Assembly (NCBI GenBank): GCA_038373865.1
Contig: JAXGGA010003455.1
Coordinates: 1-64,000, forward strand
Length of the DNA: 64,000 nucleotides
Direction of reading: 5' to 3'
DNA from: Uloborus plumipes
Taxonomy: Eukaryota; Arthropoda; Arachnida; Araneae; Uloboridae
The notes below the pieces were generated by a model. It saw nothing but the letters and a program-made list of their open reading frames with translations. It searched no databases and was not told the origin of the DNA. The position numbers and the translations under genes were made by a program. Below, piece by piece: positions 2,256-43,023 of this stretch (its first letter is position 1; each line of letters begins with the position of its first letter).

Positions 2256-2336
2256 TCAATGGCAGTAACTACATTTGGGATGACAGCGAACTCCATTTAA
2301 CATACACTTGCAGCCACCACTTGTATCACCCCGTCC
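2256..2336 (-). CDS. RBCK1-like: Exon 14: C-terminal Cys-rich tail and stop
   Basis: TTTAG acceptor; [15 protein letters not shown] then [11 protein letters not shown] and TGA (2258-2256). The human tail is the same in pattern, ending CH. Structural work on HOIL-1 assigns these cysteines to a two-zinc cluster and the last His (H510) to ester-forming catalysis; the residue is present here as H1313. Confidence 0.95.
   Translation of the reverse strand, partial: GRGDTSGGCKCMLNGVRCHPKCSYCH

Positions 2337-43023: not shown

Follow-up and report, generated by a model that had tools for sequence, protein, structure and literature searches.

Gene structure in Uloborus plumipes

The window analysed here is the whole 64,000-nucleotide stretch of Uloborus plumipes DNA, and most of it is occupied by one gene on the minus strand. 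This gene has 14 exons between 43023 and 2256, a span of 41 kb, and encodes an N-terminus, a CAP-Gly domain, a long linker, a UBL and a HOIL-1 RBR, in that order. Its outer ends are exact: it opens with an ATG at 43023, and 2256 is the last nucleotide of its stop codon. Twelve exons were set by open frames and splice sites, exon 6 by alignment with a spider protein, and exon 9 by a phase-constrained scan of one stretch (a 181-nt piece). In the list below, P0001 is an independent spider protein, from Stegodyphus.

Exon 1, 42936..43023, minus strand, 88 nt: start codon and Cys-rich N-terminus; AG before the ATG, GT donor; P0001 N-terminus similar
Exon 2, 41905..42068, minus strand, 164 nt: CAP-Gly, first half; tblastn with P0001 79% identity, E 4e-21
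Exon 3, 39070..39208, minus strand, 139 nt: CAP-Gly, second half; phase-0 join; joined domain matches PF01302 with E 2.7e-10
Exon 4, 37136..37233, minus strand, 98 nt: start of linker; 74% identity to P0001
Exon 5, 29259..31336, minus strand, 2078 nt: long linker with two KKRxAPxPP motifs and one frame break
Exon 6, 26754..26814, minus strand, 61 nt: short linker, bridging phase 1 to phase 2
Exon 7, 26582..26675, minus strand, 94 nt: UBL, first half
Exon 8, 24867..25206, minus strand, 340 nt: UBL, second half, and linker
Exon 9 (probable), 23618..23700, minus strand, 83 nt: basic linker at the place of the tick NZF; phase-fitting open stretch with AG/GT
Exon 10, 15071..15252, minus strand, 182 nt: RING1, first part
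Exon 11, 12912..13023, minus strand, 112 nt: RING1, second part
Exon 12, 8140..8418, minus strand, 279 nt: IBR; 87% identity to P0001
Exon 13, 5406..5549, minus strand, 144 nt: RING2 with the catalytic Cys (GCDW)
Exon 14, 2256..2336, minus strand, 81 nt: C-terminal Zn-binding tail, ending in His (CHPKCSYCH*)

Each of the 13 junctions has GT-AG sites and keeps the phase, and in tblastn P0001 is collinear with the gene from 42069 down to 2259. Exon 9 is the least certain of the 14, because it was set only by the scan described above; tblastn with P0001 gave no match to it, and a variant 9 nt longer fits too. The exons sum to 3943 nt, which is a multiple of three plus one, because exon 5 shifts frame once. 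This single break falls in the interval from 30626 to 30597, near an A6 run. The alignment with P0001 covers both flanks of the break, which is most likely an assembly indel. Downstream of the break, exons 5b to 14 form one frame with its sole stop at the end. An intron across the break was considered and rejected: many GT-AG pairs would restore the frame on paper, none of those inspected looked like a convincing intron, and P0001 continues on both sides. An earlier sequence-only reading of this DNA, in which the fourteen exons join in phase, is thus borne out at every junction but not within exon 5.

Two introns contain repeats of their own. In intron 2 there is a tandem array at 40177-40383 (32-bp unit, 6.5 copies, 94% matches). 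Intron 9 has one peptide frame on both strands, at 17246-17419 (minus) and 18812-19105 (plus), about 1.4 kb apart, which suggests an inverted-repeat element.

Domains of the protein

The CAP-Gly, joined from exons 2 and 3, reaches 40.5 bits against Pfam PF01302 (CAP_GLY), for which the curated cut-off is 26.5. The usual CAP-Gly motif is a GKNDG loop; it is absent in 11 of 11 aligned members of the CAP-Gly-HOIL-1 family, which have variants such as GGGSG (U. plumipes), GAGDG, GIGNG, GGIDG and alike. The UBL (exons 7 and 8) is nearest to SHARPIN (E 1.8e-06) and HOIL-1 (E 6.8e-06), and scores 23.4 bits against Pfam ubiquitin, slightly below the cut-off of 25.4. The RBR (exons 10 to 14) matches human HOIL-1 in PDB 8eaz with an E-value of 1.6e-102 over a 255-residue alignment, against 3.4e-05 for the best chain that is not HOIL-1. 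At the position of the U. plumipes active-site Cys the 8eaz chain has Ala; in U. plumipes both the RING2 catalytic Cys and the C-terminal His (in the terminal CH) are intact. In the tick protein P0013, C762 and H812 are at least 90% conserved across 50 sequences. For human HOIL-1, parts of one report describe the catalytic Cys and the C-terminal His as important for placing ubiquitin on hydroxyls (PMC11962058). In AlphaFold2 models of the tick P0013 the CAP-Gly had low confidence in both models, and the LTM, the UBL and much of the RBR were confident in the first model only.

The linker between CAP-Gly and UBL has about 730 residues and carries a basic-proline motif, KKRxAPxPP, twice in U. plumipes. 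This motif occurs in at least one copy in 113 of 129 sequences (the 128 database proteins described below and U. plumipes), including HOIL-1s without CAP-Gly, and the exon-5 linker therefore belongs to HOIL-1.

Human HOIL-1, or HOIL-1L (RBCK1), is a subunit of mammalian LUBAC with the layout LTM, UBL, NZF and RBR, and has no CAP-Gly. The U. plumipes protein shares its UBL, RBR, RING2 Cys and C-terminal His, and differs in having the CAP-Gly and the long linker and in that LTM and NZF were not found. For the NZF, no CX2C...CX2C pattern occurs outside RING2 in stop-free frames on both strands of the window, and no half-NZF with a preceding Trp on the minus strand of 15000-31000. Profiles detected no NZF in the ten spider-type proteins P0001-P0010, and no LTM in these ten or in the U. 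plumipes model (scanned without exon 6). The scorpion protein P0011, and also P0027, likewise gave no profile match for either. Spider HOIL-1 thus consists of UBL, RBR and CAP-Gly, without the tether and the NZF. The sequence-only reading had spoken of a complete HOIL-1 UBL and RBR; this is right for these two parts, but the protein is not a full HOIL-1.

Elsewhere these modules come in several combinations. The LTM profile matches before the UBL in ticks, Tachypleus, and the mites and insects examined, and in 5y3t, the LTM structure, both SHARPIN and HOIL-1L are matched by a tick LTM-UBL segment across its two parts (by the ranges of the match table). The NZF is kept in ticks and in a termite, and by profile there is none in Tachypleus or in the spider mites, bees and ants examined. 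Ticks and Varroa carry the full form. In Lycorma (P0036) and Macrosteles (P0054) there are a CAP-Gly and two NZFs, the additional one behind the CAP-Gly, and Gryllus (P0033) and Penaeus (P0123) have an extra N-terminal NZF before the LTM and no CAP-Gly. The LTM is reported to stabilise trimeric LUBAC (PMC6044281), and for human HOIL-1L the NZF is described as a reader of linear chains (PMC11555115). The CAP-Gly may substitute for the NZF in spiders; this idea is weakened because ticks have CAP-Gly and NZF together.

CAP-Gly and RBR in one chain among arthropods

With the RBR part of the 1267-aa model as query, 242 proteins were matched; the best 120 of them were examined with five home-made domain profiles. 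Identity is 79-85% for the ten at the top, and the named ones among them are from spiders. CAP-Gly and RBR stand in one chain in 21 of these best 120. When the matches of a tick CAP-Gly search and of a full-length profile were added, giving 128 database proteins, the number became 23 of the 124 that bear an RBR, in addition to U. plumipes itself. The 23 are five spiders, five named ticks, eight entries named 'lgn', Varroa, Tachypleus, a termite, Lycorma and Macrosteles; in one of them, P0121, the CAP-Gly is partial. The claim that one protein carries both a CYLD-like CAP-Gly and a HOIL-1 UBL-RBR is therefore upheld, and the fusion, which had been expected in related species, is present in spiders, ticks, the mite Varroa, the horseshoe crab Tachypleus and a few insects. 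Most of the named database proteins are gene predictions. The 'lgn' entries (P0014, P0017, P0019, P0020, P0021, P0022, P0025 and P0026; 1387-1479 aa) come from contigs of 4.6-7.5 kb, as compared to 41 kb for the gene described here, and are therefore without introns of the U. plumipes kind; these eight short contigs appear to be transcript-like. We take all eight to be from ticks, seven on the basis of CAP-Glys 93-99% identical to the tick CAP-Gly and P0021 by its sequence.

The fusion is not found in all relatives. The CAP-Gly is missing in five of the ten closest spider-type proteins (P0003, P0006, P0007, P0009 and P0010). Of these, P0003 and P0007 begin at the same in-frame Met in the exon-5 region, a Met that P0001 has too, P0006 begins further on in that region and P0009 later still, and in P0010 unrelated residues run into the start of exon 5. 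These models could be truncated predictions, or reflect an alternative start. That other insects, spider mites and shrimp have no CAP-Gly is based on predicted proteins and may partly be due to truncated models as well. A second HOIL-1 paralogue exists in spiders as well (P0051, P0087, P0097 and P0116); it has UBL and RBR, and neither a CAP-Gly nor an LTM, NZF or linker motif was detected in it. The full-length profile, scored against only those 7986 candidates that had most words in common with it, gave 23 matches, with no CAP-Gly-HOIL-1 from outside the arthropods among them, which is a weak negative. Taken together, it looks as if CAP-Gly-HOIL-1 is an older arthropod form that was trimmed in spiders, and not a one-off of one genome.

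Among spiders the CAP-Gly is conserved nearly like the UBL and the RBR. Compared with the five spiders that have it, U. plumipes is 76-79% identical in the CAP-Gly, 77-81% in the UBL and 81-85% in the RBR, while the linker has 46-48% and the region before the CAP-Gly 43-57%. This contrast matters for the question whether the break in exon 5 is real and the U. plumipes copy a decaying pseudogene. One frame break is what such a copy would show, but the 13 other exons are open, all junctions are intact, the domains hold 76-85% identity against that of the linker, and the break sits at an A6 run, which we consider a frequent place of assembly indels; decay is therefore very unlikely. Likewise very unlikely are two neighbouring genes, of which the first would be short, carry the CAP-Gly and end no later than exon 5, and the second would be HOIL-1: exon 5 is open beyond its donor to a stop just past 29158 and holds the frame break, and three of the five spider-type proteins without CAP-Gly start in the exon-5 region, but the single-chain order recurs in 23 chelicerate and insect proteins, eight of them on short contigs, the linker motif is present also in HOIL-1s without CAP-Gly, and when the tick CAP-Gly was the only query (68 candidates with shared words, about 450-1420 aa long), 12 proteins were matched, every one with a HOIL-1 RBR, and there was no stand-alone CAP-Gly gene among the 68.

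Source and possible role of the CAP-Gly

A profile built from eleven full-length CAP-Gly-HOIL-1 members has its best match outside HOIL-1 in the CYLD of the mollusc Lymnaea (E 4.4e-32). On this protein the HOIL-1 CAP-Gly profile scores 78.5 bits for CAP-Gly2, 34.9 for CAP-Gly3 and 14.5 for CAP-Gly1; a mollusc CLIP domain scores 34.0. In the reverse direction, Lymnaea CAP-Gly2 gives 40.8-87.0 bits against 23 HOIL-1 CAP-Glys (22 proteins and U. plumipes), and 8.1-22.4 bits against five other CAP-Glys. It is the nearest CAP-Gly found outside HOIL-1, and shares with the HOIL-1 CAP-Glys a longer first loop with WL, as well as VRW-G and VEFD motifs. In human CYLD the order is different: the profile scores 37.6-38.2 bits on CAP-Gly3 and 21.3 on PDB 1whm, which we take to be CAP-Gly2 and which matches below human CAP-Gly3 and many CLIP-type chains. 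Assigning the class through PDB searches was tried and dropped as not discriminating; the best matches of the profile (up to 48.3 bits) are a trypanosome tubulin chaperone, which comes first, and CLIPs, then CYLD CAP-Gly3, and a trypanosome tubulin chaperone is also the best PDB match of Lymnaea CAP-Gly2 itself (32.5 bits). In a tree of 24 rows, the HOIL-1 CAP-Glys and Lymnaea CAP-Gly2 are grouped at 92/90, beside Tachypleus (85/83), on a long branch, and constraint tests rejected no alternative (p-AU 0.132, 0.0633 and 0.131).

At the position that by our own alignment should correspond to Leu475 of CYLD, the HOIL-1 CAP-Glys carry Arg in 11 of 11 cases. In the parts of PMC8511506 that treat this residue, the CAP-Gly3 mode would be blocked by Pro or Arg at position 475, and CAP-Gly2 is said to have Arg. 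A CAP-Gly3-like domain thereby becomes less likely, and a CAP-Gly2-like mode is still compatible. An origin from CYLD CAP-Gly2 is thus favoured by the mollusc protein, not proven, and not visible in human CYLD. The proposed link to the NEMO-binding third CAP-Gly of CYLD fares less well, as the human CYLD scores speak for it and both the mollusc scores and the Arg against it.

Starting from the gene structure, the conserved CAP-Gly and a domain order that recurs in predicted proteins of further arthropods, we think it probable that this is one real gene, an arthropod orthologue of HOIL-1 (RBCK1) whose N-terminal CAP-Gly is most likely of the CAP-Gly2 type, and that its product is an ester-forming ligase recruited through the CAP-Gly. 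The RBR would act as an active HOIL-1-type ligase, with ubiquitin loaded on the RING2 Cys and then passed to hydroxyl groups with the C-terminal His as base. A HOIP/LUBEL partner may still be bound by the UBL. Carried by a long linker that has two proline-rich motifs, the CAP-Gly would bring the ligase to its targets, most likely by binding either ubiquitin that is already attached to them or a scaffold tail; for spiders, in which no LTM or NZF was detected, it would be the main remaining recruitment module. In human CYLD, CAP-Gly2 is reported to bind ubiquitin and CAP-Gly3 to bind NEMO, and the key Phe of CAP-Gly2 is described as conserved also in CAP-Glys that do not bind ubiquitin (sections of PMC8511506); this Phe is therefore not diagnostic of ubiquitin binding.

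Other roles of the domain have to be weighed against this. One possible, though not the favoured, role is that of a cytoskeletal anchor, which binds acidic tails of tubulin, EB or CLIP and puts HOIL-1 on microtubules. The domain is a CAP-Gly by sequence, CLIP-type chains are among its best PDB matches, and CYLD CAP-Gly1 and 2 are reported to aid microtubule binding (PMC8511506, in part); against this, the GKNDG loop is missing in all 11 aligned members, and plain tubulin-tail binding is therefore weakened. A docking site for NEMO (IKK-gamma), as the sequence-only reading had suggested, is unlikely: CYLD CAP-Gly3 does bind NEMO according to the sections cited above, and it is the best-matching human CYLD CAP-Gly, but in Lymnaea the profile prefers CAP-Gly2 by 78.5 to 34.9 bits, and all 11 members have the Arg.

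If the domain does recruit the ligase as a CAP-Gly2-type reader, a larger but tentative scenario is that in early arthropods a writer subunit of linear ubiquitin took over the ubiquitin-reading domain of the eraser CYLD, and that spiders and scorpions later lost LTM and NZF, ending up with a free-standing ester ligase guided by its CAP-Gly. In that case, an old arthropod HOIL-1 with a CYLD-type CAP-Gly, the same recruitment module would serve both the writer and the eraser of linear ubiquitin, and spiders, having lost LTM and NZF, would offer a natural experiment that separates the HOIL-1 functions dependent on LUBAC from the others. HOIL-1 has mostly been studied in vertebrates.

Several known proteins combine some of these parts. 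Compared to CYLD, the U. plumipes protein has no USP, one CAP-Gly instead of three, and would be a writer, not an eraser. SHARPIN has a UBL that matches the U. plumipes UBL about as well as that of HOIL-1, and to our knowledge no RBR. The tubulin chaperones TBCB and TBCE also combine a CAP-Gly with a UBL, and the trypanosome chaperone mentioned above is one more likeness to them; we know of no RBR in them, and the U. plumipes UBL is instead of the HOIL-1/SHARPIN type. HOIP and LUBEL (RNF31, CG11321) are likewise RBR ligases of linear-ubiquitin biology. LUBEL is described with B-box, NZF, UBA and RBR-LDD, and D. melanogaster is reported to be without HOIL-1L and to have a CYLD with one CAP-Gly (both from portions of PMC5090701). 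That the architecture is unfamiliar from described proteins agrees with the open-access literature as far as it was searched (mostly not full texts), where no description of a CAP-Gly HOIL-1 was found. The databases already hold such proteins by automatic annotation, several as RanBP-type and C3HC4-type zinc finger-containing protein 1, and for some entries CAP-Gly and RING domains are precomputed together.

It is worth adding what else lies in the window, in which Rfam gave nothing at gathering score. Upstream of the gene and on the same strand, 51710-55513 (minus) is an uninterrupted frame of 1268 codons; Pfam, PHROGs and the PDB gave only weak, probably chance matches to it, and it may be an intron-free gene or a mobile-element protein. 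A frame of 329 codons at 58202-59188 (minus) has a borderline GIY-YIG match (Pfam 2.8e-4, slightly below the cut-off), and arrays of a unit of about 143-147 bp are found at 57530-58106, 59126-59480 and 62996-63560. To us, this frame and the arrays look like a Penelope-type element.
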